From: Paramacrobiotus metropolitanus | Lineage: Eukaryota; Tardigrada; Eutardigrada; Parachela; Macrobiotidae | Reading direction: 5' to 3' | DNA length: 64,000 nucleotides | NCBI RefSeq assembly: GCF_019649055.1 | Contig: NW_026570226.1 | Coordinates: forward strand, 2,294,001-2,358,000 | Shown: piece by piece, positions 26,193 through 51,318 of the stretch | Position numbering within the stretch: position 1 is the first letter of the stretch | How the letters are laid out: the number at the start of each line of letters is the position of its first letter | Program-made: the position numbers and the translations under genes | The notes under the pieces: generated by a model | Seen by the model: the letters and a program-made list of their open reading frames with translations, nothing else | What the model was told of the DNA's origin: nothing | Database searches by the model: none

Positions 26193-26797
26193 AGTTTATT
26201 TTTCTAACCTTTATTTTATGATTGTTAATTGTCGTTAATTTTAGTTGCGTCAGATTTCATTTTTCTACCATAAACCATTAGTGTTCGATTTCGAGGCGGC
26301 AATGACCATGTGTTTCAAGTAATTAGAATTGTTCTTATGGTTCGATCAATAAAAGCTGTTGATTTGTTTTGTCGCTCTTTTGTTTGCCAAACAACCAAAA
26401 GGCCCAGTCTGGCGTTCAGCACTTTAAAAACAGATAACTGTGTCAGCAAAAAGAATGTTACAAAATCATCAACAACAACTACACACCAAATTCCGGCCAG
26501 TTAATGATGTAGGTAAGGTATCTGTACAGAGGGTGCGGCAGCCAAATTGAAACAGCTCATTCAAAAATTCTCAATAATTTTGTTTTTGAAATTATTTGGC
26601 AGTGTTTATCACCATTTATTCCTACAATGTGTTTGCTCTTGAATGATGCTAATTTCCTGGAAAAAGTTATTCGCCATTGCTCCAATAATCAGGTTCCAGT
26701 AAATGTCATCGATTTTTAGGCTGGACCAGTTGAAAAAAAATTCTCTAGGCAATTTCGGATAGAGGAACGAAATTCTCTAATCGTGATTGTTTTCGTT
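26193..26797. other. 3' flank of GABA-T up to the LTR element
   Basis: AT-rich, with AATAAA at 26348-26353. No gene seen. The last bases (ttttcgt) abut the left LTR. Confidence 0.5.
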
Positions 26798-27179
26798 GTC
26801 AGATATGACACAGAAGCAGGAGGAAAATGGGGGGCAAATATGCCTTTATTGTGTAACAATAAAGCAACCAACAAAAACCAACAGAAAACCCGATGGGGAA
26901 AAGCTGTGGAAAACGTAGCTGCAAGCGCGCTCGTAAGAATCGTGATAATGATTCAGCGTGCTGCAGGTATGCAACAGCTGATGCCGCAAAGCATGGAATC
27001 GCTCATAGGCGCTGGGCTACGCCCCCAAGAGTGCTGCAATGCGCTGATTGGTCAGCGAGACAAAGTGAACGCTGAGTAAGCAGCGTAATAACGCGGCACG
27101 AATGGCGTGGCCATGTGCGGGCGGGCGACAGAGCAAGCCACAAGAGGTGTCTACCGCCTCGAGTGAGCGGTCTCTGACA
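26798..27179 (-). repeat. 3' LTR (left copy)
   Basis: 382 bp, TGTCAGA at one end and TCTGACA at the other on the plus strand. It aligns along its length with 50930-51318, with many substitutions and small indels (by eye about 85-90 percent identity). A mirrored block tttattgtgtaacaataaa near 26845-26863 places AATAAA on both strands; the minus-strand copy (26845-26850) is the expected element polyadenylation signal, about 50 bp from the LTR end. CCAAT-type sequence (gattggtcag) is present near 27048. Confidence 0.9.
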
Positions 27180-29158: not shown

Positions 29159-30079
29159 CTATCCCTGCCCTCCTTGTCCCGCTTGGTCGCCATCGCCCAA
29201 CCCGGGGTTGAGTGGGTCGATGACGCTTTCCTCCATGTCCGCCAACTCCTGTTCGGTCTGGTTTGCTTGTTGTTGGCTGGAGGTGCTGGTCGGCTGAGCT
29301 TCTTGGCCAGGTTGTGTGGCCTGGGTTTGGACGTGTGCGGACGATCCTGTTGAGGATCGTTGGGTACGGAACTTCGTTGGAAGTTTCCTGGTCGCCGTTC
29401 GGTTAACGAACGCTTCCGCACCGTCATCGAAGTCCGATGGCTGTTTATAGCGGTAATCTTTAGAGCGGTTCCTGTAAATGTTCAGGGCGCTTTGAATTTT
29501 GACTCCCGCTTCAATCTCGTGGATCTGGTTTCCCAGGAGAGCCACTTGGGTCAACAGCCGAGGGACGATTTTCCCTTGCCGGTAGGCAACTTCCAGTTCC
29601 CAATGGCAGTGTAGATGACCAAGTCTGGAGGCAAAGATGCGTATCATCGTGCCGTTATAGGAGTATTTTTGCGTTTCTGGGTCATCCTTGTGATCCGCTG
29701 GCTTGCATGGGATTTCTATGGCCGCTCTGCAAGCTGCGATGATGAAACTGGCGTTCGCGTCCGGTAGGACAAACTGGGCCAGATATCTGACAACATCCAG
29801 TTGGTCGTCTTTGATGTGCAGTTGGCACAAGTCGTTCCAGTCCGGTCTGGTAATGGGCTGTCCAAGTAAATTCACGTCCGTGATGCTCGATAGAGCATTG
29901 TCACGGACCATTGGGTAACCCTCGCGGTTTTGTATGTGCTCGGCCATGCTGAAATCACGAGGCCAATCTTTCCGCTGCATCTCCATTTCAAGTCCGGACC
30001 GGGTGACGAAGGTTTGTAAATTCTGGACCATGGCGTCAACTTGGGCCCATCTGTCCCTGGGGTATGGGATGGCCCTCAT
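29159..30079 (-). CDS. element ORF of unknown function (about 306 aa)
   Basis: The open frame begins without a stop upstream of 30094; the first ATG is at 30079. The first 210 residues look like a compact helical domain with conserved-looking W and C residues (RDRWAQVDAMVQNLQTFVTR, DWNDLCQLHIKDDQLDVVRY, ANASFIIAACRAAIE, RLGHLHCHWELEVAYRQGK). After that comes a disordered Gln/Thr/Ser/Pro tail ending in acidic and Gly-rich residues. Last ORF before the 3' LTR. I do not recognise the family; a compact helical core with a disordered tail could suit an RNA- or particle-binding protein, but that is a guess. It lies in the same frame as the ORF at 31123-30422, so the two may once have been one protein. 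Confidence 0.55.
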   Translation of the reverse strand: MRAIPYPRDRWAQVDAMVQNLQTFVTRSGLEMEMQRKDWPRDFSMAEHIQNREGYPMVRDNALSSITDVNLLGQPITRPDWNDLCQLHIKDDQLDVVRYLAQFVLPDANASFIIAACRAAIEIPCKPADHKDDPETQKYSYNGTMIRIFASRLGHLHCHWELEVAYRQGKIVPRLLTQVALLGNQIHEIEAGVKIQSALNIYRNRSKDYRYKQPSDFDDGAEAFVNRTATRKLPTKFRTQRSSTGSSAHVQTQATQPGQEAQPTSTSSQQQANQTEQELADMEESVIDPLNPGLGDGDQAGQGGQG

Positions 30080-30119
30080 AATGTAATCCGTCACCTCCCG
30101 GTGGGGAAGTGGTCGGATG

Positions 30120-30425
30120 TTAATGCCTGGTCCTCAGCATACTTATATGGATCGAAGCCCGTGGCACTGATGCTCGCGTCTTGTCGGGCCGATGGGTCCG
30201 ACGACGGCGGTGCGGGCTCCGTTTCCATCGGTATCTGGATGCTGATGTTGTGGGCCACCGAGCTGACACTTCGTTCTGGTCGCTTGGTGGACTGCGCGAC
30301 AACCAGGCTGGACTCCGTCTCGTTTCGCTTCCCGGGTGATGTGCGCGGTTGGCGCTCGGGCTGGCTACGGCTTTGGCGTCCACTTTGGTCCTGGTTGCGG
30401 CTCTGGATCTGGTGACGTAAGTCAT
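30120..30425 (-). CDS. possible overlapping Arg-rich small ORF (101 aa)
   Basis: Its ATG overlaps the stop of the preceding ORF as ATGA (30425-30422). The product is Arg/Ser/Ala-rich with a run of basic residues (RWKRSPHRRRRTHRP). ATGA overlaps are used for termination-reinitiation in some retroelements. The composition is also what a shadow of a GC-rich coding region would give, so this call is weak. Confidence 0.25.
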   Translation of the reverse strand: MTYVTRSRAATRTKVDAKAVASPSANRAHHPGSETRRSPAWLSRSPPSDQNEVSARWPTTSASRYRWKRSPHRRRRTHRPDKTRASVPRASIHISMLRTRH

Positions 30426-31123
30426 CTGGGGTTCCGCGGTAGCGGTGTCAGTGGTGTGCGCTGTTCAGTGCGCGCTGGCTGGTATTGGCTTTTTAAGGCG
30501 TCCAGCAGTCCACCTTCCATCAGCTGTCGGGCCACCTGGTCAACCATAGCTTTGTTGATGTTTTCCAGGATCGTTTTCTCGAACCCCTGGTTGTATTCCA
30601 TGGGTATGGGCAACTCGTGTCCGTAGGATCGAGAGCCTGATGATGGCCGCTGATGGTCGTAATTTTTCGGGGCGGCCGTTGGGCCACGCCCTGAGGACTG
30701 GTCAGATCCCGAGTTGCGGGATCGACGTTCCCGGTCCCGCTCGTCCTTCCGTTCTCGAGCCGATTGGCTGAGTGGAGGAATCGGAGTTCCGGTACTGCAC
30801 CAGCCAGGTTGTCGGGCGCCACTACGTTGCATGTAGAGATCGTAGATCTCTATCTGCTCGTGGTCCCTCAGTAGGGGAATCAAGTGGCTACCGTCGCGGC
30901 TGGTCATGTGTATATAAGCGTCGAAATTGCCTCTCACCACTTCCAGGTAGAAGCAGTAGGCTCGTTCGCTCTCGTCGCGGAAGCCCGGCCGCAGGTGGTA
31001 TGCGCAGGGGAACAACTCCCGTGAGGAATTGTCCCGGCGGTGAGGATGTGTCATGCTATCGCCGCTGTTGCGTCTGCAGTCCGAGCATCGCGGTTCGTAT
31101 TTCTGCTGCGGTGTAAGTCCCAT
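30422..31123 (-). CDS. element ORF of unknown function with N-terminal Cys cluster (233 aa)
   Basis: Starts with ATG at 31123. The N terminus has CSDC at about residues 13-16 and CAYHL at about 40-44, which could form a small zinc site. A middle segment (ERAYCFYLEVVRGNFDAYIHM, PLLRDHEQIEIYDLYMQ) looks folded, then comes an Arg/Ser/Asp-rich stretch (RERKDERDRERRSRN) like an RS linker, and a final amphipathic helix (FEKTILENINKAMVDQVARQLMEGGLLDALKSQ). It follows the giant ORF by about 190 bp. I do not recognise the family. Confidence 0.55.
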   Translation of the reverse strand: MGLTPQQKYEPRCSDCRRNSGDSMTHPHRRDNSSRELFPCAYHLRPGFRDESERAYCFYLEVVRGNFDAYIHMTSRDGSHLIPLLRDHEQIEIYDLYMQRSGARQPGWCSTGTPIPPLSQSARERKDERDRERRSRNSGSDQSSGRGPTAAPKNYDHQRPSSGSRSYGHELPIPMEYNQGFEKTILENINKAMVDQVARQLMEGGLLDALKSQYQPARTEQRTPLTPLPRNPR

Positions 31124-31313
31124 TCTCTGTGGTAACAGAAATGAAACTTGCAGAATGAGGTTAAGTCCGCTTTCTATGACGGGTCCCTATGATAATTACG
31201 CCCTATGGTTTACGTCCCTATGATTTTACATGTGATTTGTTAACTAGGCTTTTCTTGCCCGGTGAATTATTTCGGGATCACCCCCTAGACCCTATGCGAA
31301 TTCTACGCCTAGG

Positions 31314-34300
31314 TCACTGATGGTGAGTACGCCGCTTCTTCTTGGACTTGGTTGAGGCCAAGGAGTCGGATTCGGTGGGACGAGGGCCGTAACGATCCGG
31401 TGGGACGTTATGTTGTCTGTACCGCTGCTGGGCCTCGGGCTCGTCAACAGTTTGCTCGAGCCATCCTTCGTTTAACATCTTCCTTACGACGTATCTGACG
31501 TCCTCGCAGATAGGGTACAACCCGCTAGGGCGGCCCTGGTTCGGCACATATGCTATCCCATCGATGAGTTGTGGATGGTGCGAGATGACGTTCAGATCGT
31601 ATCGGCCCAGGAGCTGGTTGGCTATTTCGCCTCGTGTGAGGCCTAATGGGTGCTGAGTGGTGGTCAGCACTGTGAGGACGGCGTTACGCCATTCCCAGTA
31701 GCCTTGAGGAGCCTTATCCACTTTTTCCGGTGGGAATGTGTAGAAAATCTGCGTGTTAGGCAGATGGGTCCGTAGTATAGCTCCTTCATTGTAGGCCATC
31801 TGTATGTACTTCATCACTTTGGACTTGGACAGCGGTGGGCCATTCCATTTCTTGATGAGTTGGAAGGCCAAGCCCCCTGTAGCAAGGGTTGTACCCGTTT
31901 GGGACAACGCCTTTAGGGCCGCCTTAATGTATGCCCATCGCTTGTCAGAATTGGAGATCCTTGGCTTTTTTGAAGGGTCTCCGCCAGGCCATTTCCTGGC
32001 CACCTTTGGTGTTGGTGGCGAGACGTAATCAATCCGCGGTATGGCCGGGCACGGGTCAGGTAAAGTCCATGGAATCTCGCCATCATCTGATTCTGGTGAG
32101 GTCGAGTCGCGCATCCTTTCCCGTTCGGGCGATGCAGCGCTTCCACTTGGCTCAGCGTTGTCTACGCTGGCCGGACTTTCTTGGCTAGCGCCTTCCGCGC
32201 TGTCGTGTTCCTGGTTGGCACTTTCTGCGCCACCCTGGTCTTCCATGTCCTGGTCACCGCTAGGTGGCTGGTTCTCGTCACCGGGTGGTATTTCCATGTC
32301 ATGGTCCGGTGGGAGGTCCATGGTAAGTTTACCAGGGCTTTGGTCATCATCGTCGTCAGAGTCGGACTTTTGGGACTCCATGGTTTGGTCCTGGTCCGGC
32401 TCTTCTTGTTCGTCATCCTCTGAGTCCTCTGGTTGTGAGTCCTCAGAGTCCGAGTCGCTTGGCTGCGGTGAGGGATCTTTTTTCCCTCTTTTCTTTGTGG
32501 CCGTGGCCTTTCGGCTCTTTGTGGATGTGACCGATAAGGCTGGCGAAGGAGGTCTGGACCGGCCAGCTGCGTTAGGCAGTGACACAGTGTCCCTGGGCAC
32601 AGGCCGAATTCCGGCTGCGCGCATCTCGTCTTCCGCTTCTTGGCGTGCAGCCAGCTCTCGTCTTGTGACGGATGGTCGAGGAGGCTTCTCTACCGGCAAC
32701 TTCTTTGGACCAGGCAGTTTGGCCACTTGGGAGATCAAGTATGCCTCCTTGGCTCTGCCGGTCAACTTGTCCTTCGGCGGTCCAGCCGCTTTCTTTCTGT
32801 CCGGATCCCATTTTGTGCCCACGTCGTGTGACACATACAGAGACCGTTGGGTCTTCTGTGGGATGAACCCGGGAATTGTGAAGCGGATCGGCTCTGCCCG
32901 GTAGGCGTTGGTCGTTTCTAAAGTTCCGTCCTTAACCAACGCTAACAACTCGTCAAGGATAATCTTTTCCAATTTCTCCTGGTCCGCCTCTCCTTTGTAG
33001 TAGAGAGCGTTAATGGTCCTGACTATGTCGACCAAGTTGGAGCCTCTTGGGTTGTGCAGGTAAGCGATGGTCCTGCATATCTGGTGAAAGGCGTAATCCC
33101 GGCTACGGGAAAGCCCTGCTGGCCGATGAGGCACGTGAAGCTCCATCATGCTGGTCCAGTCACGGTGCGTGCGGACCAGAAGTCCCATGTCCAGGATGAG
33201 AGTTACTACACGCCGCATGAAGGGTGCCGTTAGTACACGGTCCGCTGGCGGTAGCCCTCTGAATTCTTCTCCATGTGCCATTCTGGCTCGGAGAACTCGG
33301 ACGAGACATTGGTACATGTCTCTTCCTGTTGTGCGTCTCATGATCCTGGCCGCTGCCACCCATTGGCGCACATATGGACCCGTTGGGATCTCAATGTGCG
33401 TGGCCTCCGGTCCAGGGTCCGGGAGCTCAGCTTCGTCGTCCGCCGGCGCGGGGAGCATTGTTTCCTCCGAAGGCGGTTCACCTTCGGGAACTGGCTCGAA
33501 TTCCTCTTCTTGCCATGGACGATATTGTGGTGGCTCTTGTGACTTGTCCATACTGTCCGATAGGACTTGGACGTCTTCATCGCCTGACAGCCGTTTTTCG
33601 AGCTGGGCGATCTTGGCCTCTTGACTTTTCTTGTCTTTGGCCGCTTGTTTCTTCTGGCGGTTCCGTTCGGCCTCTGGGTTCGATGTTGGCCGAGATGTGG
33701 CCGCCTGACTCCCACTCGGTTGAGGGGAGTTTGGACGAGTGGCCGGTTTGGCCCTCGATTGTGGGGAAGTTGGACGAGAGGCCGGTTTGGCCCTCTCTGG
33801 ATTTTTGGCTTTTCTCGGCTGCTTACTCCGTTGGGAGTTAGCTGAGTGAATCACACCCAGGCCGAGTGCGAAATTCTCCATTGTCCCTGTTGCAGGGAAA
33901 GTAACTGGACGGCCAAAAGGTATATCGTCGATGCTGGCTGGCATGTTCGTCAAGTTTATCGGAGCAGCGGCCGTTGGCCCTGTTCCGGACTGACTTTGGC
34001 CTGCCGATTCTTGTGCCGACGAAGTGGCCTTCGGTTGCTCCTCCGGTTGGGCTGGTTCTGGCTGTGGTGCTGTGGCCACAGGTCCAGACGGAGAAGTGTC
34101 CATTGGCTCTGAAGCCGCTGGTGGTTGTGCCTGCGTCTTTGACGGTACCACAGTTGGTGGCGCACTTGACGACAGGGTTTCAGCCATTCTAAAGTCTTCC
34201 TCCGGTGGGGGGAAGGCTTTCTGGTTGCGACGGCGCCGGTAATCGTCTATCATCCGTAGGACCAGGGATCGGAGCATTTCGGTTATCATCTCGTATTCTT

Positions 34301-37300
34301 CCATACGATTCTGCTCCTTGGCCTCCTGTCTCTTTGCGAGCAGGAACGGATATTGCCGTCGTTCATTATGGTCAGCATGAATCAATAAGTGTCTCTGCTC
34401 GATAGGAGTGAGAGCACTCATGGGCATCAAGGCCGCGTCGGCTTCCATTTCTTGGGCCGAGACAGCCGGAGTTATCCGCACCGTCATTCTGGCCGATTGT
34501 GCGACCACTGGTGCAGGAGTCCTAACCGTGACCGTTACTGGTTCAAGTGTTGAATCTGCAGACACCGTAGGTGCTGCGATTCGTTCCACAGTAATGGTCA
34601 TCGTTGGCTCTGGAGGAGGTGTTGTATCCATCCTCTCTTTGGTTGGAGACTTGCCTGGCCGGCTCGGTGTGAACCTGGCAGGCGCCGGTTCGATAGCCGG
34701 CATGCTGGGCATTCGCGCCGGAGTTGATGTGGCGCGTCCAGGAGAAGTCCGTTTTGATGGAGATCGGCTTTGGCGCGGCGATTCCTTCGTTGAAGGTGGC
34801 CGGACCTGGCTGGTCTCATATAGCGCCCTTTGGACGTTTTCGTCCAAGTCTTCCTCGATCTCCGACTCCTCGCTGGAGGAGACGCCCCAGAAGGCCGCTG
34901 GCAGTTGAGGACGTTCGTCCTCGCTTTCTGCCTCTTCCGGTGGAAGTTCGTCTTCCACTGGCTGGCCTGGTCGTGGGCGGGGTTCAACTGTCCATGCCCT
35001 TGGGTTAATGTGAGGGCCACGGATGTAGATGGCATGCTCGATGATTTCGCTAGGCAACTTGCGTTGGCGAAGGGCCTGGCTTTTACTTCGCATGGCCATC
35101 AGTTTTCTGATGAGGATTGTACGTCCTTGGACCATCTGTTGACAGCCGCGGTTGATGCGGTCAATCTCTCGGTCCGTTAGTGTAGGATCGCCGGCGCGTA
35201 GTCGCTGGCGCATATCTTCCTCAGTCAGATTTAAGCGTAGATCAAGTTCTATGATCTCGCTTACAAGCCGGTTGTGCGGGTCATCCCATGACTCCGTTTG
35301 AGTTAATCGGATGCGATGCCTCGTTGGAGGTTCGTCCCGCAATGGCTGTGTCGTTCCTGACGGAATCTTTGGTGCTTCCGGTGGGGAGAGCACGTGTCCC
35401 TTGCCAGGAAAGTTCTTCGGCGGCGACTTCTTCTTCTTGGCCGGTAGGCCACGAAGTATCAAAGTCGGTGGTTCCGCTTTCTTCGGTTTAAGTATGGACC
35501 GACCTGGCCTGGTAGGGCCAGAAGTGTCTGAGTCCCTTACTGGGTCACTCAACGCTGGTGGAGTGGACCTGGGTGGTCGGTTCAACTCCAAGTTCTCCCT
35601 TGGTCCTCGCCAAGGTGGGAGTGACCGCTGTGAAGGAGGCTCTTCCGCTTCCGGAGGAGTCCTCTTCTTCTTCTCGAATCTAGGCGACCGTGGGCCACTT
35701 GTTGTGGCAGGAGTGGCCGGTTCTGGCCGTCCTCCTGTCGATTTCCTAGGCGTTGGCCGGACAACGAGGGTGCCACTTGATGTGTCGCCTTCAATTGGCT
35801 TCGGTGTAGGCTGTGATGACGCCGTTGGCGCATCTACAACCATTGGACTTGTAGGTTCACCAGCCGGTTGGACTGGTGTTGGCTCCGTTTCGACCGGCTT
35901 CTCCGGCGAAAGATCGAAGGTTTTATCCAGCAGGCTCACGTCCATTTCGACGTCCTGCGGTGGAACTTCTTTGCTGCTGTCCGCTATGGCAGGTCCAGCA
36001 GTGTCCACGGATTGGCTTGATGTTGGACCAGGCACCGTTAGGGCCTGGGCCAACTCAGCTGGAATTGGCTGTCCAACTGATGTTGAGGCGGCCGGTTCAT
36101 ATGTCAGGGCCAAGGGTGTTGACGCAGACACCGGTGATGGTCGCCATTCGTTTACTGGATCGAAGTTACTGGGGCGTGCCGTCGTTGACGGGCCAGGTCG
36201 TTGGACCTTCCAGTAATCTTCGATGAATTCTCGGATCCATCTTGTGGTGTGGTCCAAAACAGTTAACGATTGACCGGTAGGCATCGTACTGTTCGGAGTA
36301 AGATCCCTGAGCAGAGCCAACCGTTGGGTAAGGCTCTGTTGCTGTCCTGTCAGCCTGACCGCTTCTGGGTCGAACGGGCTGAGTTCTTGGATCCGGTTGG
36401 TTATGCGGCGTTCGACATCTCCAGCATCGCTGATAAGGTGCCGAATGCTCAGTGCTTGGACAACCGTCATTTGCATGGGCCCAGTGTCAGCTTCGCGTAA
36501 CCGTTGGTTCGCTGCTGCCTGTTCATCATCCCATTGCTGACGTAAAGTCCGAGGGGCCGGTCGATTGTCGTCGTCCGGCTGGTTTAGTAGCGGGAAGTCG
36601 TCCGCGTAGGCCGTTCTGCCTCGCGTAACGTTGCCCCTCATAATTAGTTCCAGGCGTTCCGCTATGGCTGGTGGCGGCGCCAGTGAAGTTGGCCTCGGGT
36701 GGACCTGTCGTTCTGGCGCGACCAGGTGATCAGGCGGAGCTGTAAGTCCTGGTACGGGGGTTGGGTCTGGCATGTCGAACCACTCAATGTCGCTGTCGGT
36801 TTCTGTGTCCGACGCGCTGGCTGGTCGACTTAGTGCTGGTCCGGCTGCAAATCGTTCAGCCGAGATCCGCATAATTCTCGAGACTCTCATCCTCAATTCT
36901 TCCGCCGGTTGGCGTGTTGAGGACCGTGTCGGCGTGAGAAGTCCGGTTTGTCCGACGCGTGTTGGCTGCCCCGGTCGGGGTTTGGGTAACACGCGCCTAA
37001 GTGCTTCGTCGATCAGGCCAAGCTGGTATTGCCGGTTACGGAAATCGCGCAATGATGGTGCGTCGTTGGCCGTATCCAACGGCTTATCCATAAACCGCAG
37101 CATGGCCCGTCGAATCCTGGTTATGTATTCCAGGACGCGTTGGAATTCCAGGTCCAACGCGACTTTTCTCCGTAAAGTGGCAATATCCACTCCCTTCAGG
37201 CTACTGATAACCTTACGGATTTCCTCTTCGAGGCGTTCCGCGGCGTGGAGTTCACGCTCCAAGGGAGGTATGTCTGGGTAAGCCCTTAAGTCATACGGAG

Positions 37301-38903
37301 AAGATGCTGGTTCTCGCGGTTCCAATCCAGTGGCCGTCAGCATTGCCTCGTCGGTAGACGTAGGCTGGGCCACTGGTGGCGCGGAAGATTCCCCTGTCGT
37401 AGCGGTAACTACGACTGTTGGGTTCAATGGTGGAGGTGGTGCTGATGGTGCTGGTGGCGGACGTGTTGGTGCTGCGGATCCTTCGGTCCTCAGCTGTCTT
37501 TCCGTCCGATACTGTTCCAGCTGGTCTCTCAGCCTGCGAGATGCCGCCAACAGTGCCTGACCAGTTTGGTCATGCAAAGGAAATATCTCGTTTTGAGCTT
37601 GGCGGGTCGCTATTTCCTCACTAAGTTCATGAGCGAGGCGCCGGAACTCGTCTTGATCGAGAATGATGCGCTGAGCCTTCTCACGGTAGTCAGGGCTGCG
37701 GCTGTCCAATTCTCGAATCATGGCCTCCAATTCTTGGATGGCGTTCTCTACTTCCTTCAGATTGTCCTGAAGTTGGTAGAGTGGAGTCCGGCCGTCGGCC
37801 AGAGGTTCTGTGGGGGATTCAATCCGCAATGGTGGGGTAGTTGGGTCCCATTGGACGTCCCCTTCGTCTTCCGGCTCTGGCGAAGACACAGATTCTGTCG
37901 GTGGGACAGTCTGGTCACGCCTTATCACACACACTGGGTTCAGTGGTGGTTGTGCTGCCGGTGCCGGTTCAGTTAGGCCAAGTTGGGCCGCTAATTCCGG
38001 TGGAACGTCTTCTGGCCGGTTGTAAATGGTGAGCCGTCCATTTACAAATACCCGTAGTGGGTAATCACTTGGCTCGTTGAGCTGTGATGTGCTTGGCTGG
38101 GTTTCCGGCGGCGCTGGGGTTTGGTACGCTTCCGGTCCCGCTCGTGGAGGCTCAATGGATGAGTCAGACGGCGCCTGGCCCGTTGGGTCAGGTTGTGCCG
38201 CTGAAGGTGGGCTATACGGCGGTTGGCCGTATGCTCCATATCCGCCATAAGGCGGTGGATATCCATAAGGTGTAGGCGGATACATCCATGGTGGTGGGTA
38301 TCGCCACTGATTCGGATCCGGCTGCGGCTGGTTTGAAGGTCCAGGCGCAGGGTATGGTGGATATCCATAGTAAGGGTTATGGTATGGAGGCGGAGTGTAC
38401 TGTGGCCGCGGTCCAGTATGGACCGGCGTAGTCGTGACCGTTGGCCCGACTGCCGCAGTGGTGAAAACTGGCTGACTCGCCGAAGTGGTCGGTAGGCCAC
38501 CATACCGAATTGGCTGATGTGAGCCGGTACGGCCGTGAGGATAGCGTCGGACCGTTTGGCCCGACGTAGAGCTTGGCTGGCTGCCAGCTACTGCTGCATT
38601 CACCAGGAGTCCAGTCACGTCAGAGAATGTCCCTGGCGGCCAAAGTTGTGGCGGTATGGCTCGAGGTGGCAGAGGCTGTGACCGCGGTAGCGGTGTGTCG
38701 GCCCGTGAACTGGGGCCGACTGACATAGTTGCCAGCTGCTCGGCGGTTAGGTTGGCCCTAATATTAGGTACCTGTACACTCGGAGGCCGGTTAGACGACC
38801 GAGTGGAAGATCCGCCCGACCGGGATTCCGGTCGTGAGTATGGATGTGTGCGGTTACTGCGGTCGGAGTCATCAGAGCGATCAGTGCGTCGGCGTCCGTC
38901 CAT
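31314..38903 (-). CDS. giant element-encoded protein, 2,529 aa, helix-pair modules plus winged-helix-like units
   Basis: An uninterrupted frame from ATG 38903 to the stop at 31314, the longest in the window, lying between integrase and the 3' ORFs where env would be in an errantivirus. No signal peptide, no membrane helix and no glycoprotein pattern are visible, so it is not an envelope. Residues 1-290 are disordered and Ser/Arg-rich, then Pro/Tyr-rich (YGYPPYGGYG type). Five helix-pair modules follow in Pro-rich linkers, at about 377-435, 548-604, 815-869, 1211-1275 and 1497-1557; each is an amphipathic helix, a short S/K-G/P-D-P type turn and a second helix. About four winged-helix-like units lie at roughly 1846-1926, 1936-2013, 2322-2391 and 2403-2484, separated by a long acidic Ser/Asp/Glu tract. 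The C terminus is a nuclear-localisation-like KSKKKRR. Nuclear, nucleic-acid-binding action is inferred from this layout. No relative is known to me. Confidence 0.75.
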   Translation of the reverse strand: MDGRRRTDRSDDSDRSNRTHPYSRPESRSGGSSTRSSNRPPSVQVPNIRANLTAEQLATMSVGPSSRADTPLPRSQPLPPRAIPPQLWPPGTFSDVTGLLVNAAVAGSQPSSTSGQTVRRYPHGRTGSHQPIRYGGLPTTSASQPVFTTAAVGPTVTTTPVHTGPRPQYTPPPYHNPYYGYPPYPAPGPSNQPQPDPNQWRYPPPWMYPPTPYGYPPPYGGYGAYGQPPYSPPSAAQPDPTGQAPSDSSIEPPRAGPEAYQTPAPPETQPSTSQLNEPSDYPLRVFVNGRLTIYNRPEDVPPELAAQLGLTEPAPAAQPPLNPVCVIRRDQTVPPTESVSSPEPEDEGDVQWDPTTPPLRIESPTEPLADGRTPLYQLQDNLKEVENAIQELEAMIRELDSRSPDYREKAQRIILDQDEFRRLAHELSEEIATRQAQNEIFPLHDQTGQALLAASRRLRDQLEQYRTERQLRTEGSAAPTRPPPAPSAPPPPLNPTVVVTATTGESSAPPVAQPTSTDEAMLTATGLEPREPASSPYDLRAYPDIPPLERELHAAERLEEEIRKVISSLKGVDIATLRRKVALDLEFQRVLEYITRIRRAMLRFMDKPLDTANDAPSLRDFRNRQYQLGLIDEALRRVLPKPRPGQPTRVGQTGLLTPTRSSTRQPAEELRMRVSRIMRISAERFAAGPALSRPASASDTETDSDIEWFDMPDPTPVPGLTAPPDHLVAPERQVHPRPTSLAPPPAIAERLELIMRGNVTRGRTAYADDFPLLNQPDDDNRPAPRTLRQQWDDEQAAANQRLREADTGPMQMTVVQALSIRHLISDAGDVERRITNRIQELSPFDPEAVRLTGQQQSLTQRLALLRDLTPNSTMPTGQSLTVLDHTTRWIREFIEDYWKVQRPGPSTTARPSNFDPVNEWRPSPVSASTPLALTYEPAASTSVGQPIPAELAQALTVPGPTSSQSVDTAGPAIADSSKEVPPQDVEMDVSLLDKTFDLSPEKPVETEPTPVQPAGEPTSPMVVDAPTASSQPTPKPIEGDTSSGTLVVRPTPRKSTGGRPEPATPATTSGPRSPRFEKKKRTPPEAEEPPSQRSLPPWRGPRENLELNRPPRSTPPALSDPVRDSDTSGPTRPGRSILKPKKAEPPTLILRGLPAKKKKSPPKNFPGKGHVLSPPEAPKIPSGTTQPLRDEPPTRHRIRLTQTESWDDPHNRLVSEIIELDLRLNLTEEDMRQRLRAGDPTLTDREIDRINRGCQQMVQGRTILIRKLMAMRSKSQALRQRKLPSEIIEHAIYIRGPHINPRAWTVEPRPRPGQPVEDELPPEEAESEDERPQLPAAFWGVSSSEESEIEEDLDENVQRALYETSQVRPPSTKESPRQSRSPSKRTSPGRATSTPARMPSMPAIEPAPARFTPSRPGKSPTKERMDTTPPPEPTMTITVERIAAPTVSADSTLEPVTVTVRTPAPVVAQSARMTVRITPAVSAQEMEADAALMPMSALTPIEQRHLLIHADHNERRQYPFLLAKRQEAKEQNRMEEYEMITEMLRSLVLRMIDDYRRRRNQKAFPPPEEDFRMAETLSSSAPPTVVPSKTQAQPPAASEPMDTSPSGPVATAPQPEPAQPEEQPKATSSAQESAGQSQSGTGPTAAAPINLTNMPASIDDIPFGRPVTFPATGTMENFALGLGVIHSANSQRSKQPRKAKNPERAKPASRPTSPQSRAKPATRPNSPQPSGSQAATSRPTSNPEAERNRQKKQAAKDKKSQEAKIAQLEKRLSGDEDVQVLSDSMDKSQEPPQYRPWQEEEFEPVPEGEPPSEETMLPAPADDEAELPDPGPEATHIEIPTGPYVRQWVAAARIMRRTTGRDMYQCLVRVLRARMAHGEEFRGLPPADRVLTAPFMRRVVTLILDMGLLVRTHRDWTSMMELHVPHRPAGLSRSRDYAFHQICRTIAYLHNPRGSNLVDIVRTINALYYKGEADQEKLEKIILDELLALVKDGTLETTNAYRAEPIRFTIPGFIPQKTQRSLYVSHDVGTKWDPDRKKAAGPPKDKLTGRAKEAYLISQVAKLPGPKKLPVEKPPRPSVTRRELAARQEAEDEMRAAGIRPVPRDTVSLPNAAGRSRPPSPALSVTSTKSRKATATKKRGKKDPSPQPSDSDSEDSQPEDSEDDEQEEPDQDQTMESQKSDSDDDDDQSPGKLTMDLPPDHDMEIPPGDENQPPSGDQDMEDQGGAESANQEHDSAEGASQESPASVDNAEPSGSAASPERERMRDSTSPESDDGEIPWTLPDPCPAIPRIDYVSPPTPKVARKWPGGDPSKKPRISNSDKRWAYIKAALKALSQTGTTLATGGLAFQLIKKWNGPPLSKSKVMKYIQMAYNEGAILRTHLPNTQIFYTFPPEKVDKAPQGYWEWRNAVLTVLTTTQHPLGLTRGEIANQLLGRYDLNVISHHPQLIDGIAYVPNQGRPSGLYPICEDVRYVVRKMLNEGWLEQTVDEPEAQQRYRQHNVPPDRYGPRPTESDSLASTKSKKKRRTHHQ

Positions 38904-39144
38904 CGTTGAATGGGGCGCTGTCACGAGACGAATCACGCGGTGTTAGACTTCTACCTACTATGTTAGTTCGAAGTACGGCTAGCTAATTCTTAAGCTACCA
39001 TGTCATCAGACCAGCTTAGGCTACTTTTAGGCTACTGGTCTTTTAGATTTAGGTTAGTTAATTTTAGGTTAGTTAATTTCGGTAGCAGATCACGGAGACG
39101 ATTTTAGGTTAGTTAGACTAATTTTAAGTCTACCATGTCAGATA

Positions 39145-41102
39145 TTATTTTAGAACGTCATTCTGTCCAGCCTTATCAACCGCCTTGTCCAGTACATCCG
39201 GTGGGACTGTACTGGACTTGTCCGATACGTCCGGTAGGACCGTATTGGACTTCTGCTTTTTGCCCTTTGAGACTTTCTCTGATTTTTCCCGTCCTGTGGT
39301 TATGCGGGTGAGCAAGTCTTTTTCCGCCTCATCTTCAGCAACTACGTCCTCTTCCAGGACTTGCTGGGCCGTAAGGGTTGCCTTAGGCTTCTTGGGCGTC
39401 TTTGGTTTCTTGGGCTTTTCCTTGGGCGCCGGAGCCACCTTTGGCCCTTCGGTCGCCGCTGGCTTGTCCGTAGCGGATGTTCCTTTTTCTGGTTCCGCCG
39501 GGGCCAAAGTCGGGTCAATAGCGGCCAATGGCTGGTTTTGGAGTTTTTGAAGCGCCGGTGTCTCGAAATCCGGTTTGGCCTTTCGAGGTCGGCCTGGGCC
39601 ACGCTTTACTGGTGGCTCTGGGTCTGATGTCTTTGAGTCAGGTGGGCCATAGCCAGGGATTCGCAAAGTCTTTTGTTGCTCCGCCACAAGTTTCTTGGAC
39701 GGGCCCTTTCCGGGCTTCTGCTTTTTCAGCAGCGTCTCAAGTTTGCTCTGGGCATGTGGGAGCTCTGCATCTTGTCCTGGCTCTGCCTTGTTATTGCACC
39801 TTTCCGACTCTGTGGGTTCAGGTTCTGCGTCGCCGCTCTTCTTCTTGGATGAGCGTGTTATTCTGCGACTCGGGCCGTCCGGGTTAAGGTACGGCTTAAG
39901 GCGATCGACACATACAGTGTGTTCTACACCGGTGTCCCGCTCTCGGATCCAGTAAGTGTTCGGCTTAGGTATGCCGATGATGGTGTAGACGCCTTCGAAC
40001 TTGTTTAGATTGGTCGGGTCGTCCACCATGTTCTTTAGGGTGACCAAGTCCCGTTTCTTGAACTCGGCCTGCGACTTCTTTTTGTTGTAGATGGCCGCAT
40101 CCCTTAGGAACCCTTCTTCGATCCGCGTTTTGGCAATTTCATGCGCCCGGTTCAGGCGCTGCTGCATCCTCTTGACGTAACGTTCGTTAGTCGTAAAAGT
40201 TTCTGGGACGTTGGTCCCAGCGAGGACGTCTTGCGGTATCGTCATTTCTCGTCCAAACAGCATGTGGTATGGCGAGAATCCAGTGGTTGCGTGGACGGCA
40301 CGGTTCATGCCCGAGATCACGTACGGTAGGGCCCGGTGCCAACGATGTTCGTCGCCGGCGCCGCCAAAGTTTCGGATTCCGTCCCAGATGGTTTGCATCT
40401 GGCGTTCGACTTGGCCTTGGCCCTCCGGATGATAAGCGGATCCGAAGGTCTGCTCAATGCCGAAGATTTTCGCCACTTTGGCGAAAGATTTTGCCGTGAA
40501 ATGCGTGCCCCGGTCGGAGTGCATTGTATGTGGCATGCCGTACTTTAGTACGACTTCTTCGACAAAGAACTTCTCAAATTCCTTGGCCGAGTTTGTCTTG
40601 GTCGGCCGAGCTATGGTGAACTTCGTCATTTGATCGACCACCACAGCAATGTACCGGTATTTCTTTGTTTGTGTTACCGGTAGAGGTCCTTTGAAGTCGG
40701 CGAAGACGCGGTACCATGGCGCAACAGCTTCAGTCGGCTGCAGCATACCGTAGGTAGCTCGCCGCGGTACTTTGCCGAAAATGCACGTCTGACATCGGTC
40801 GATGTAGTCGTGTATGTCGCAGCTCATGCGGTCCCAGTAGTACCGGAGTTTGGCTGCTTCAATGGTCTTGCGGTATCCAAAATGGTTCCCTGTTTTCCGT
40901 CATGGAGGGACTGGATAATGTTTTTCCGCATGAACAGAGGGACAACGAACCTCCTTTCGAGTTTCGCATTGATGTCGGTGAGTCGGTAGAGCACACCTTT
41001 GTCCATCTGGTAATGTTCAGGTAGTTTGGACCTCTTGTCCAGTTCGCTTTGATGTTCCAACTCATAGATTTTCTTGGCCAGAGTTGGATCACGGTGTTGC
41101 AT
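39145..41102 (-). CDS. integrase of the Ty3-type element (frame-shifted near its N terminus)
   Basis: Two frames cover the domain. The frame 41102-40824 carries the zinc-binding N-terminal region and then shifts near 40885. The frame 40827-39145 (560 codons from the internal Met) carries the rest: CQTC of the HHCC zinc finger at residues 12-15, and the catalytic triad D44 (FADFKGPLP), D105 (HSDRGTHF) and E141 (GQGQVERQ), i.e. D-D-35-E. A C-terminal chromodomain-like or GPY-type region (KRDLVTLKNM, WIRERDTGVEHTVCVDRLKPY) follows. The last 200 residues are a Lys/Pro/Ala-rich tail that contains RGPGRPRKAK, an AT-hook. The domain would join the cDNA to host DNA in the nucleus. Confidence 0.85.
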
Positions 41103-41830
41103 CCGTCGCAGTTCTTGCGCGGTGCGGTCCGTGACTTTTTCTGGACACGGTGGGACTTCGGGCTCTGGCTCTCCCGGTGCGGGCGCCGGTACATTGATGA
41201 CCCGTATGTCCGCCGTGCTGAATTGATCCCAATCTGTAATTGCGTTGCAATCGGGAAGGAGAGAGCTTATCCCATTCGGTTGCGGGGTCCTCGTCCGTGA
41301 CTTGCAGCCTGCGCACCTTTATGATGCGTGCTGGGATCTCGTCCTTATAATCCTCGAAGTTTAGGGACTTGGTCCAACTCTTCATGTGGGCCTTTGTCGT
41401 CGTCCCGTTCGAGTGGCCATCTGGACAATGCGTCAGCATTGTCACAGAATGTGCCTGGCTTGTACTCAATGGTGATGTCCCTTCCTGTAAGGCGAGGGCC
41501 CATCGAGTAAGACGAGGATTGATGCCGGGCCGGTTAGACTCGCATCTGAGCAGATTGGTTAGGGCTCTGTGGTCCGTCCTTACGGTAAATGGTCCGTGGT
41601 CGATGTAGTGTTTGAATTTTTGGACGGCCCACACTACGGCTAAGCATTCCCATTCGGTTACGCCGTAGTTCTTCTCAGCTCCATGTAGGACGCGGCTTGC
41701 GTAGGCAATTGGCCTCGAGTCCTGGCTGAGTATGGCTCCGATGCCAGCGCCACTTGCATCACATTCGATGGTGGTCTGTTTGGTCGCATCGAATTTGGCC
41801 AATATTGGGGCTTCCGTTAGGGCCTTTTGA
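41089..41830 (-). CDS. RNase H domain of the element (separate frame)
   Basis: Frame 41802-41089 has no ATG start of its own, which fits an internal piece of a polyprotein cut off by a frame change at about 41930. The RNase H signature is clear: IECDASGAGIGAILSQ, PIAYASRVL, EKNYGVTEWECLAVVWAV and RTDHRALTNLL, with the catalytic D-E-D residues in place. The match to family stops near 41490, where the frame changes again; the remaining residues to 41089 are out of frame with the pol family pattern. It would degrade the RNA strand of the cDNA hybrid. Confidence 0.82.
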
Positions 41831-41871
41831 TTTCGTTGAACTCAGCGGTGTGGGCGTCGGTCCAGTCGTTT

Positions 41872-44800
41872 TCACTGAACTTTCCTTCCGCAGGAGTTCA
41901 TACATCTTGGAAGTCTTCTGGGCGTAGCCCAGAATAAACTTCTCCGGTAGTAGTTAGCGAGTCCAAGGAACGAGCGAAGTTGACGCTCGGTCTTGGGCGG
42001 TAGTTTCTCGGCGATGGCCGCTACCTTCTCGGGGTCAGTATGGACACCGTCCTTGCTAAGGATGTGTCCGAGGAATTGGAGTTTTTCCATTCCAAATTCG
42101 CATTTCGACGGTTTTATTGTGAATCCGGCGTCTCTGAGGCAGAGGAGCGTGTTTCTGAACGCCTTCCTGAATTCCTCAAATGTCTTGCCGAAGAATATCA
42201 CGTCGTCGATGTATGCGAAGGCGCCGCCTTGTTTGCGTGCTGGCGCCATAATCTTGTCCATTGTCATTTGGAATGTGGCTGGCCCGTTGCAGACGCCAAA
42301 CGGCATTCGTTTGAACCGGAACATCCCTTCTGGAGTCACGAAGGTAGTGTAGTCCATTGACGCTGGATCCATAGGTATTTGCCAGAATCCGGACTGACAA
42401 TCTACCTTGCCGTAATAGGCGTTGCCTGCACATTGATCCAGAAGTTCGTCTGGATTGGGCAATGGGTAGTTGTTCTTCTTGGTCACCGAGTTCAGCTTTA
42501 TGTAATTTATGCAGAACCGGGTGCCCATGGTCCCGTCGCCGTTTTTCTTCGAGGCGAGGACCACTGGGAAACTCCACGCTGCCATGGACGGTTCAATCAC
42601 GCCTTGGTCCAACATTTCTTGGACATGCTTATTGATGAACTCTCGTCCCTTCCAACTCGTTCGGGTTGGGTTCATTTTAATTGGTGCAGCGTCGCCGACT
42701 TCTATGACGTGGGTCACTCCTTTAACGTCGCCGTAAGGCTTTTTGGACGTCGGGAATATGGCCCGGAGTTCCCATAAGTCCTGACGGAGTAGAGCGGTCT
42801 GCTCTTCGGTCAGGTGATCGCCGAAGTGTGCATTAGCGATGTGAGCGCGGATTTCGCGTTCCACTTCAGGATCTTCCTCTCCGGTTTGGAGGGAATTGAT
42901 CTTGGCATAATCTTCATCCGAGATTTCCTCGTATGGTTCCACTTGGCCCATGTTAACTCCTTTCCGGAGTATATGGGGCTCTTTGGAGTAGTTTGACACC
43001 AATATGGTGAAACTGTTGCCATTATGCTGGACTGGTCCGTCGAGCATGGCCAGACTCCGTTTGGTGTCTTGGCTTCCGAGGTACATAAGTTTCTGTCTCG
43101 GATCGACAGGATAATCAATGCTGACTTGGACCGGGGTAATGGACTCCGGTGGGAGTTCCACTTTTACAGTTGCCCGGACCATAGCATGGTCGTTAATGGT
43201 GCGGTACCGATTTGGATTGTTCCCCGCCGCTTTTGGCCATGGTAAGGCGTCGGCGTTGGGAATTGACCAATCTACGCCGTCCTCCTTGATGTCTGGCTCA
43301 TATATGTCGCTATAGTACATATGGCCAACTTTTGCACCTTTGCGGAGGATTTGGTCGCGTCGGGACTTATTTTGGACCTGAATCCACGCGTGTTCGCTGT
43401 TTCGAGTTTGGACCTCTGCTTCGATCGGTATGACCAAGCGGTGTGGTCGTCTCAGCGATTTAAAGTGGATTGGCCGTCCCGGGTCCATAGTCCGATAGGA
43501 CCGGACCTTAATCCAGCAGGTTGAGTAAGCTGGTAAGGTGTACCGCTGATGAACGAAAACGACTTCTTTCTCCTCCTTTAAAACGTCGGTTGGACGTTCG
43601 GTCCGCAATTTGCGGATTACCGGTGCTTCGGCTCGGAGTTGAAGAATTTCTGTGTCCTCTTCGTCATCACTTGACTCCTCCGATGATTGGTTATCGGAGT
43701 CCGTGTCCGGTGAGTCGCTTGAGCTTTGGACGTCCGAATCGGTAGACTCGGGTTTGTCGTCCTGCCCAGGTTTTGGCTTGCCGTTGTCTTCGTTAGAGGT
43801 TGGCGCGCCGCCGGCCACTGTTGGTGCCGGTTCGGTTGTGAGATCCTTTGGTTGGATCTCTGGCGTTCCGGTTGCGATTTCCTGCTTCTCAGGTTCGTCC
43901 AGTTCCGCCGAAGTGGTTGGACGGCTCCCGTTAGGGAGTGGCGAGGCTGGTCGGCCTTTTGCCCAACGTTGAGTCGAACGGGTTTGTATGGCCCGTATTA
44001 CCGCTTCAACGCCGTCTCCACATAGAGGACAAGTCAATTGGACTTCCTCTGATGAAGGGTCCTGCTCGTTCTGGCTGGTGTCCCTTCGATGGCCTCCCTG
44101 TTCTGGGTGTGGGCCATCATTGAAGCGCACTTTTGTCGCTATATGCGGTGCAGCTTCCGGCAATGGTTCCGGTATGGTCCTAACGTTAGTCAGGCTCAGG
44201 TCGTACTTTGGCCATATGCTGACGGTTAAGCCAGGGTGTTGGGCCACTTGTCTTCGAAGTTTTATGATGTCATCGAAGAGATCCGTGCACATCTTTTGAA
44301 GGGCTTTCGGCATTTCCATGTGGTACTCCTGTATTCCCACACTAGGGCTAGACGTTCGTCCTCCCATAATGCTCCTTCTTGAACCAAATCGTCCAATTCT
44401 TGGGCGAATGGTCCGTATTGTTCGGCAATTTGCGGCCACGTTAGTGGTTCGCCTTTTGTCTTCAAGCCAGCTCTCTTCTAGAGCAAGGAGTTGGTTAACG
44501 CGGTATTCCAGGAAATTTCTTACTCCTGTGAACCAAGTTTTATAGCGCTGGACCAGGTTCTCCTTAATTTCTCTGTCAGGCACCGGCCGTTGGCCCGGTG
44601 CCTCTGGTATCGGGATAGTCTTTACTATCCCGTGATTTGGCTTGAGTATGCCTGCACGGAATTGGGTCATATAACGCTCGATTGCGTTATGGACGCGCAG
44701 CTCCCATATGAGGCTTTCAATGGTGTCCAGGCATTCCCAGCAGGTAGAAGGAGAACCTTTCGGGTGATCAAGCCGATTAACTCTCACTTCATCATCGGGT

Positions 44801-45252
44801 CCCGGTGCCTCTGGTATCGGGATAGACTTTACCGCGTCCCAAACGATTTCTTCGTTTGGCTTAAGAATGAAGGTGAACTTGGAGTGGAGATAGTCACAGC
44901 CAAGTAGTACGTGCACGTCCGTTAACGTCGGTTGGACGAAGAACGTGTGGTGGCTCTTGTATCCCTGCAGTGTCACCGGTACGGTGCAGCAGTGGGAGAC
45001 CACGAAGGCGGTTTGTCCGCCAACACCAAGGATTTTGGTGTTCCGTCCTAATGGCTCTGTTTTGATGCCATTGGCGGTGCAGAATTGCTGGCTGATGAGG
45101 GATGTCTCCGCTCCAGTGTCCAGCATAGCGAGCGTGTGGACTGGTCCAATTTGGACTTTGTGTGTCCATGCTCTGACGGTCTTCGGTTTGCGATTTTCGT
45201 CAAGGCCAACTGTCACTTCCCGCATCACCGGTACAATGGGGATTAGCGACAC
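41872..45252 (-). CDS. pol: aspartic protease and reverse transcriptase of Ty3-type element
   Basis: Open for 1,126 codons; the first codon is not ATG, so expression as a Gag-Pol fusion by recoding is likely. The protease lies at about residues 25-140, with the catalytic LAMLDTGAETSLIS (D45-T-G) and the flap/second motif VHVLLGCDYL. A long middle region (200-620) includes an acidic Ser/Asp stretch (SDSPDTDSDNQSSEESSDDE). A second folded region (620-800) precedes the RT. The RT (about 860-1110) shows INYIKLNSVTKKNNYPLPNP, GKVDCQSGFWQIPM, FKRMPFGVCNGPATFQ and the active site YIDDVIFF with Y at residue 1014 (42213-42202), then LGHILSKDGV and SFLGLANYYRR. The frame is lost right after that motif, at about 41930. 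It makes element cDNA in the particle. Confidence 0.9.
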   Translation of the reverse strand: MSLIPIVPVMREVTVGLDENRKPKTVRAWTHKVQIGPVHTLAMLDTGAETSLISQQFCTANGIKTEPLGRNTKILGVGGQTAFVVSHCCTVPVTLQGYKSHHTFFVQPTLTDVHVLLGCDYLHSKFTFILKPNEEIVWDAVKSIPIPEAPGPDDEVRVNRLDHPKGSPSTCWECLDTIESLIWELRVHNAIERYMTQFRAGILKPNHGIVKTIPIPEAPGQRPVPDREIKENLVQRYKTWFTGVRNFLEYRVNQLLALEESWLEDKRRTTNVAANCRTIRTIRPRIGRFGSRRSIMGGRTSSPSVGIQEYHMEMPKALQKMCTDLFDDIIKLRRQVAQHPGLTVSIWPKYDLSLTNVRTIPEPLPEAAPHIATKVRFNDGPHPEQGGHRRDTSQNEQDPSSEEVQLTCPLCGDGVEAVIRAIQTRSTQRWAKGRPASPLPNGSRPTTSAELDEPEKQEIATGTPEIQPKDLTTEPAPTVAGGAPTSNEDNGKPKPGQDDKPESTDSDVQSSSDSPDTDSDNQSSEESSDDEEDTEILQLRAEAPVIRKLRTERPTDVLKEEKEVVFVHQRYTLPAYSTCWIKVRSYRTMDPGRPIHFKSLRRPHRLVIPIEAEVQTRNSEHAWIQVQNKSRRDQILRKGAKVGHMYYSDIYEPDIKEDGVDWSIPNADALPWPKAAGNNPNRYRTINDHAMVRATVKVELPPESITPVQVSIDYPVDPRQKLMYLGSQDTKRSLAMLDGPVQHNGNSFTILVSNYSKEPHILRKGVNMGQVEPYEEISDEDYAKINSLQTGEEDPEVEREIRAHIANAHFGDHLTEEQTALLRQDLWELRAIFPTSKKPYGDVKGVTHVIEVGDAAPIKMNPTRTSWKGREFINKHVQEMLDQGVIEPSMAAWSFPVVLASKKNGDGTMGTRFCINYIKLNSVTKKNNYPLPNPDELLDQCAGNAYYGKVDCQSGFWQIPMDPASMDYTTFVTPEGMFRFKRMPFGVCNGPATFQMTMDKIMAPARKQGGAFAYIDDVIFFGKTFEEFRKAFRNTLLCLRDAGFTIKPSKCEFGMEKLQFLGHILSKDGVHTDPEKVAAIAEKLPPKTERQLRSFLGLANYYRRSLFWATPRRLPRCMNSCGRKVQ

Positions 45253-45839
45253 TGGTCCTGGATCGTCAGGAGCGTACTGGGGTGATAAAGGCTCCTGCTG
45301 GACAGACTCTTCCTGTGGTGATGTTTCCGCAACCCGTAGGGTCGGAAAACATACTTTTGGTGTTAAGGAAGGTCCGTGAGCTGTTTATGGTTCGCACCGT
45401 TGGTGTGGTGCCGAGGGTTGTCCACCGATCTGGGGCCAGCAGGTACGGGGACTTGACGCCTCAAGAGGTTCGGTTGTCCAATCTTTTAGGGATCCGACCT
45501 CGCTGTCCGTATCTTGTACGGACCATCCTTCCGTGCGCTGTCGGAGGATGTGTCTGACGCCGATTGTGGGTACGTCATGTTCGTGGTGCGACGTCTCGCT
45601 TTGCCACGTGTTCGGTTGGCCTTAGGGTTGAGGCTCCGAGTTTTGGGGATCGGTTGGCCTTAGGGTTAGTTGAGGCTCCGAAAATCGACTTGGTCGCCTG
45701 CAGTGCGACTGTCGGCCTGGCATCAATTTTAGAGCCAGGTGGCTCAAACGCTGGTTTGCCGCTGAGCCTGGATCCACTGGTGGGCTGTTGAGCCATAGGG
45801 GTTAATTTGGGATCCATGTAGGGATTAGTTAAGTACGGA
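45253..45839 (-). other. gag-pol junction region
   Basis: Between the CCHC-bearing gag frame and the pol frame. An 80-codon frame at 45817-45575 is rich in Pro, Ser and Lys and may be a linker or shadow. A local duplication of ggttggccttagggtt with gaggctccga occurs at 45621-45682. No folded domain is recognised. Confidence 0.4.
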
Positions 45840-47020: not shown

Positions 47021-47024
47021 CTGA

Positions 47025-50929: not shown

Positions 50930-51318
50930 TGTCAGATCAGACACAGAAGCAGGAAGAAATGGGGCAAATACAGCCTTTATTGTGATAACAATAAAGCAAC
51001 AACACACAAAAACCAACAGAAAACCCAATGCGGGAAAAGCTGGAAAAAGTGCCTGCAGTGCGCTGGTGAGGAATCGTGATTAATGATTCCGCGTGCTGCG
51101 GGTATGCAACAGCTGATGCGGCAAAGCATGGAATTGCCCGTAGGCGCAGGGCTCCACCCCCAAGAGTGCAGAGAAATGCGCTGATTGGTCAGCGTAGACA
51201 AAGTATACGCTGAGTAAGCAGCGTAATAGCGCGGCACGAATGGAGTAGCCATGTGCGGGCGGGCGACAGAGCAAAGCCGCGAGAGGTGTCTACCGCCTCG
51301 AGTGAGCGGTCTCTGACA
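50930..51318 (-). repeat. 5' LTR (right copy)
   Basis: 389 bp with TGTCAGA/TCTGACA ends. Same landmarks as the left copy: CCAAT-type motif (gattggtcagcg near 51184), mirrored AATAAA block near 50976-50995. On the outer side the next five bases are TACCA (51319-51323), and the five bases inside (50925-50929) are also TACCA, the start of the primer binding site. Confidence 0.9.

Follow-up and report, generated by a model that had tools for sequence, protein, structure and literature searches.

The window, the whole 64,000-nucleotide stretch of the Paramacrobiotus metropolitanus genome analysed here, carries a minus-strand Ty3/gypsy-type LTR element of 24,522 bp (51318-26797), delimited by self-comparison and motif positions. 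The 5' LTR (TGTCAGA...TCTGACA; 50930-51318, minus strand, 389 bp) and the 3' LTR (26797-27179, minus strand, 383 bp) both have TG...CA ends and are 87.6% identical (K2P 0.088). They enclose an internal region of 23,750 bp, and a PBS-like sequence, TGGTAGCAGCATCG (50929-50916, minus strand), lies directly after the 5' LTR. The leader holds a tandem pair of 81-bp repeats (50577-50657 and 50686-50766) that are 90% alike, with similar, matching repeats in the element copies on C21 and C6. In 2-kb steps the element is mostly 49-58% GC, compared with ~38-46% in the flanking host DNA. Outside the element, the window includes a host gene piece encoding an alpha-2-macroglobulin thioester domain (8362-9753, minus strand; Pfam TED_complement, E 1.5e-83) and two related inverted-repeat clusters 9.6 kb apart (53098-53620 and 62746-63315), which are perhaps a non-autonomous DNA transposon.

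Pfam matches place protease, reverse transcriptase (RT), RNase H and then integrase in the order of Ty3/gypsy-type elements. The protease and RT frame (41875-45384, minus strand; gag-asp_proteas E 3.5e-07, RVT_1 E 4.8e-27) is separated by a break in this copy from the RNase H frame (41092-41841, minus strand; RT_RNaseH E 2.7e-34), and an integrase frame with a basic tail follows (39148-40899, minus strand; rve E 8.9e-15). Integrase frames reach 2,262 aa in some other copies. The ~780 residues between protease and RT (42541-44883, minus strand) form an unusually long spacer, and two stretches near its end resemble tandem beta-rich domains by eye. The integrase/Pol tail contains the motif KRGPGRPRK (39580-39603, minus strand), which is AT-hook-like; it is present in 11 element copies and reads KRGRGRPRK in the C168 copy (L025). 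The putative gag region (45843-50032, minus strand) is broken into three pieces (50032-48518, 48248-47028 and 47024-45843). We infer its identity from its position and from a capsid-like stretch judged by eye, and it matched no gag family in Pfam.

The copy in the window is older or rearranged, given an LTR distance of 0.088 and the lack of a target duplication. Its gag, pol and ORF4 are interrupted and its ORF3 is open. Target duplications of 4 bp (GGCA, ACCA) were found in two of the three copies examined. These are the insertions on C21 and on C6 near 1.24 Mb, which have LTR distances of 0.0026 and 0.0053, duplications of GGCA and ACCA, and open ORF3 frames of 2,559 and 2,548 aa, respectively. 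Their near-identical LTRs and target duplications indicate that the family moved recently.

ORF3, the third gene of the element, lies between the integrase and ORF4 (31314-38903, minus strand) and encodes a giant protein of 2,529 codons from the ATG to the stop. The open frame begins at 38942, the first codon past a stop, and contains a GTG at 38936, the ATG at 38903 and the stop at 31314; residue numbers below refer to protein P0001, counted from the GTG. The initial annotation had reported a frame open for 7.6 kb and 2,529 aa. This holds, on the minus strand, and no frame longer than 297 aa arose in 200 mononucleotide shuffles. Long open ORF3 frames occur in eight copies, of which five are full-length (2,540-2,559 aa, L009-L013) and three are shortened by a frame shift (L014, L015 and L025; 2,117-2,215 aa). 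A frame of at least 1,900 aa was absent at the four further loci tried (L021-L024).

Selection maintains ORF3 as a protein gene, as pairwise dN/dS is 0.18-0.28 in 28/28 pairs of the eight open copies, near the values for the integrase (0.13-0.40 over 10 pairs and 0.13-0.20 over the six that lack L036). Along the frame, those 100-residue windows that allowed scoring give dN/dS of 0.05-0.45, and the structured units are more tightly constrained than the linkers in all five pairs compared (0.15-0.20 versus 0.22-0.29). By its frame, selection, position and conservation, ORF3 is a real, conserved and unusual gene. Within ORF3, antisense ORFs measure 288-304 aa, a length similar between copies; they were rejected as a gene, since 54 of 300 synonymous reshuffles contained antisense frames of at least 304 aa.

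ORF4 follows ORF3 (29162-31186, minus strand) and contains four stops in the window copy. It is a 675-codon frame in L033 (851-2875; 654 aa from the ATG) and in L034 (943-2967). ORF4 is under selection, with dN/dS of 0.14-0.29 in its N-terminal part and 0.10-0.40 in its C-terminal part (10 pairs each). It has 71 genome matches (66 scored) with identities down to 60%, bar one fragment at 37%. ORF4 matched nothing in Pfam or NCBIfam and nothing significantly in PDB, and it has no transmembrane-type stretch (top 19-residue hydropathy mean 1.4).

Several sequences could serve the expression of these downstream genes. A likely splice acceptor, TTTCATTTCTGTTACCACAG (31127-31146, minus strand), precedes ORF4 in 11 aligned rows from eight element copies. 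This 20-nt stretch before the ORF4 ATG is identical in seven of the eight, and the diverged C168 copy is one base off; the spacer around it is otherwise variable. The leader holds a candidate splice donor, CGGTAAGACCTG (50473-50484, minus strand), whose core, GGTAAGACCTG or a GGTAAGACCTGT-type stretch, is kept in all three leaders compared. A weaker candidate acceptor, recognised by sequence only, lies 15 bp before the ORF3 ATG (38918-38929, minus strand). Together, the candidate donor and acceptors suggest spliced subgenomic RNAs for ORF3 and ORF4.

The ORF3 protein is 13.6% proline and has only six cysteines in 2,529 residues. Five hydrophobic helical islands are embedded in the Pro-rich sequence, at residues ~383-452 (M1; 37581-37790), 549-619 (M2; 37080-37292), 824-912 (M3; 36201-36467), 1218-1310 (M4; 35007-35285) and 1506-1571 (M5; 34224-34421), all on the minus strand; their borders, like those of the C-terminal units below, were placed by eye. 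M1 is coiled-coil-like, with weak Pfam matches to coiled-coil families, and M2-M5 gave nothing or one weak match in Pfam. The intervening Pro-rich linkers are probably disordered. The initial annotation had described five similar two-helix modules in proline-rich linkers and suggested testing them for common descent. The five islands and their Pro-rich setting stand, and the mutual similarity is not supported: hhalign comparison of M1-M5 with one another, using shallow alignments that could miss distant descent, detected none above disordered control pieces. The best module pair, M2-M3, reached a probability of 3.8 versus 9.4 for the control pair D4-D5 (M3-M3b is an overlap). To the extent visible, the resemblance among the modules is therefore one of kind only.

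Further along the protein lies an acidic D/E-rich linker (32037-32459, minus strand), whose net charge is -21 in one 60-residue window and -13 in another. ORF3 ends in the basic sequence KKKRR (31329-31343, minus strand), as previously noted; the basic tail is found in all nine aligned rows that reach the C-terminus, and there are further basic clusters in the protein. PPPY motifs, which we take to resemble budding motifs, occur near residues 182 and 227, and PPxY is present at or near these positions in seven of the eight open copies, the eighth (L014) being without that part. The gene occupies the position of env, and the protein has no transmembrane stretch (top 19-residue Kyte-Doolittle mean 1.3) and no signal peptide as judged by eye, in agreement with the first reading of the locus.

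The C-terminal part carries four winged-helix-like units, at residues ~1849-1937 (W1; 33126-33392), 1943-2026 (W2; 32859-33110), 2328-2405 (W3; 31722-31955) and 2409-2502 (W4; 31431-31712), all on the minus strand. Each ends in the pattern [hydrophobic]..[hydrophobic].{2,3}G.[LI]..T, which occurs nowhere else in ORF3; the four endings are VTLILDMGLLVRT, LLALVKDGTLETT, IQMAYNEGAILRT and VRKMLNEGWLEQT. None of 2,000 block shuffles contained four or more matches to the pattern, which was chosen after inspecting the units. Such an ending matches what a third helix followed by a wing would show. The pattern is lost or looser in most of the distant relatives described below.

Linker_histone and RPA_C are both winged-helix families, and each gave a weak profile match here. 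The sole Pfam match of W2 is to the Linker_histone globular domain (PF00538; E 0.018, profile positions 8-63 of 74), at 15.7 bits below the curated cut-off of 22.4, and its E-value is 0.11 with W1 attached. The sole match of the W3W4 query is to the RPA32 C-terminal domain (RPA_C, PF08784; E 0.00045, or 0.015 for W4 alone), at 21.3 bits below the cut-off of 22.6. It falls in two pieces, at the start and end of W4, flanking ~26 residues that have no RPA_C counterpart. W1 and W3 have no Pfam match and are kept in distant relatives. The Linker_histone match (E up to 1) recurs in only two of eight aligned W1W2 rows and the RPA_C match in only two of seven aligned W3W4 rows; distant W1W2 and W3W4 relatives gave no match, or unrelated weak matches, in Pfam. 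A match of W1W2 to ribosomal eL38 among PDB sequences (E 0.039) was taken as chance. Profile-profile comparison of W1-W4 with one another found nothing above disordered control pieces. The proposal of about four winged-helix-like segments ending in G-x-L or G-W-L accordingly keeps its shared ending and gains the two weak family matches, and loses mutual similarity by profile. On this evidence, W1-W4 are probably four winged helices.

ORF3 belongs to a large family within the 169.8-Mb genome. The whole protein as a query scored only 19 genome windows, and pieces of it found many more: at least 152 matches for W1W2 (best 150 of 342 candidates scored), at least 150 for W3W4 (274 candidates) and at least 150 for M4 (213 candidates). 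Among the matches listed, close copies are ~60-100% identical to the ORF3 pieces, distant relatives are 35-43% (W1W2), 34-46% (W3W4) and 27-37% (M4) identical, and the frames of the distant relatives reach 3,302 aa. M4, W1W2 and W3W4 recur in this order within a single frame, for example on C41 (76827/78525/79947), C478 (8497/10255/11674) and C69 (418136/419891/421325).

Neighbourhood counts omit some fragment rows (134/152 W1W2, 145/150 W3W4 and 79/96 integrase rows were used). Among the matches listed, W3W4 lies 0.8-2.2 kb downstream (median 1,434 bp) in 106 of 134 W1W2 rows, including 44 of the 64 distant ones. Likewise among the matches listed, an ORF3 match lies 3-11.5 kb downstream on the same strand both for 48 of 61 close integrase rows and for nine of the 18 integrase rows at 52-61% identity. 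The remaining 22 integrase rows may be broken copies, lie at contig ends, or have an ORF3 outside the matches listed. The distant ORF3 frames are part of LTR elements in the nine integrase-linked cases. An apparent set of ~40 integrase copies without ORF3 was rejected, as it reflected the 19 windows scored by the whole-protein query; the piece searches place ORF3 next to 48 of 61.

Beyond this genome, a profile built on the last 710 residues matched four proteins among the best 8,000 candidates scored, all four from Paramacrobiotus metropolitanus. P0001 as a whole had no useful match among the 7,999 candidates sharing most words in the protein collection, and residues 1841-2080 found nothing useful there. 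On these protein searches among the best candidates, ORF3 relatives appear, as far as found, only in Paramacrobiotus metropolitanus. None of 43 IMG/VR stretches was an ORF3 relative. The whole protein had no family match in Pfam (E up to 1) or NCBIfam (E up to 0.1) and no match among PDB sequences (E up to 1), where its pieces had no significant match either. The open-licence literature yielded no paper about the element itself and none about giant LTR elements of tardigrades. A repeat study of two other tardigrade species describes 40 LTR families (PMC11071193), and the main text of a P. metropolitanus transcriptome paper contains no words beginning 'transpos' or 'retro' (PMC11191345). The protein was initially called an undescribed retroelement protein; it does lie inside a Ty3/gypsy-type element, and it represents an undescribed family as far as the database and literature searches reach.

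We infer the fold, location, binding and role of ORF3 from its sequence, and our tentative reading, held with somewhat less than even confidence, is that of a nuclear protein that binds element DNA and host chromatin. ORF3 would act in the nucleus, where its basic stretches and KKKRR end would carry it and bring it onto nucleic acid, and the four C-terminal units, as winged helices, would bind DNA or partners in chromatin. Self-association of ORF3, and its association with Gag or integrase complexes, may fall to the helical modules and the Pro-rich N-terminal part. Its main job could be coating or condensing a cDNA of unusual length, accompanying it and anchoring it to host chromatin so that it can integrate; the AT-hook-like motif of the Pol tail might assist in this. 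The reading is favoured by dN/dS near that of the integrase, units tighter than linkers and the kept order of M4, W1W2 and W3W4, as well as by the Linker_histone and RPA_C matches, the shared W motif, the basic clusters, the lack of a transmembrane stretch and the Pol-tail motif. Against it, the fold matches fall below curated cut-offs and recur in few aligned rows, there is no significant PDB match, and W1-W4 have no profile homology to one another. Winged helices can also bind RNA or proteins, and the PPPY motifs suit a particle protein.

The latter is the main rival: ORF3 could be an internal particle protein (nucleocapsid, scaffold or tegument-like) that helps hold the 24-kb RNA and is perhaps cut by the protease into small proteins. 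Small units on long linkers, like beads on a string, would suit such a protein, as would the PPxY motifs of seven of the eight open copies, and packaging is a stated limit for elements (PMC6431247), the internal region here being ~23.75 kb. However, a long gag region is already present in the element, and the basic C-terminus and the weak linker-histone-like match suit a nuclear role better, so we consider a particle role possible and somewhat unlikely. The position of ORF3 between integrase and 3' LTR could also point to a diverged envelope gene, yet neither ORF3 nor ORF4 has a transmembrane-type stretch, and six cysteines in 2,529 residues and a basic tail make this extremely improbable.

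There are two further alternatives. ORF3 might be an RNA-export or RNA-processing factor that brings out unspliced genomic RNA, by analogy with CERV of Cer1. The likely splice sites in the element would create a need for one, and CERV is a precedent for accessory proteins of this kind (PMC10309623), but CERV is a 517-aa protein with exons common with gag, whereas ORF3 is a separate frame after pol in which neither an export signal nor an RNA-binding family was recognised; we regard this as fairly improbable. A large accessory protein with a nuclear tail would also fit a factor that counters silencing or disturbs another host system in the germ line, and a review of Burro elements suggests that their extra domains meddle with host systems (PMC6431247). 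The low dN/dS of ORF3 in the scored windows (0.05-0.45) gives no sign of an arms race, at the resolution of pairwise tests, which miss selection at single sites, and we find this alternative improbable.

The nuclear tether reading can be extended. The traditional size limit of such elements is ~10 kb (PMC6431247). We speculate that a giant gypsy lineage evolved its own tandem winged-helix chromatin protein of 2,500 to 3,300 residues, a self-encoded tether and cDNA-compacting factor that, together with an AT-hook Pol tail, would lift this limit and fill the role that host tethers have for retroviral integrases. This full scenario is quite unlikely in our estimation. Within a single 170-Mb genome, a protein of at least 2,500 residues has many divergent relatives, and the elements carry ~3,200 extra residues in two genes, ORF3 and ORF4. 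One protein family thereby makes it testable how LTR elements outgrow the usual size limit, and also addresses what a third gene other than env may do. If the W units bind DNA, the element makes its own chromatin protein. The element also adds a giant class to the LTR repertoire of the tardigrade phylum.

Planarians and plants also have giant gypsy elements, named Burro (internal region up to 25 kb) and Ogre, respectively (PMC6431247). With 23,750 bp between its LTRs, the tardigrade element exceeds the 20-kb internal region by which these giants are recognised. Like it, Burro is a gypsy-type LTR element with an internal region > 20 kb and much extra coding sequence. Its extra domains are, however, described in a single ORF1 of ~4,900-5,100 aa together with gag, whereas here the extra protein is a separate frame after pol, and the domains named for Burro (BIR, ankyrin, BCL2-like and env-like), compared by description, are not seen in ORF3 (PMC6431247). 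Ogre of dicot plants owes much of its size to LTRs of 1.9-6.5 kb, in contrast to the 383-389 bp found here.

Extra ORFs between pol and the 3' LTR are reported in plants, for example GENE23 of Grande, PvRetro13 and Retand (PMC7264820). They likewise lie at the env position, and some are reported to be nuclear or to have a DNA-binding domain; unlike ORF3, those named in that source are antisense (PMC7264820). The ORF3s of bdelloid rotifers also occupy the env position and are described as esterase/lipase, exonuclease and env types (PMC5408684). Among the plant and rotifer ORFs encountered in these sources, none has the size or W-unit layout of the tardigrade ORF3. Set beside ORF3 by description, CERV of Cer1 from C. 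elegans differs in its 517 aa, its exons common with gag and its G-protein-like domain (PMC10309623), where ORF3 is a separate 2,529-codon frame after pol, neither gag-sharing nor of ~500 aa. CERV nevertheless is, as is proposed here for ORF3, a nuclear accessory protein encoded by a gypsy-type element, and its structured domains are carried on flexible linkers (PMC10309623).
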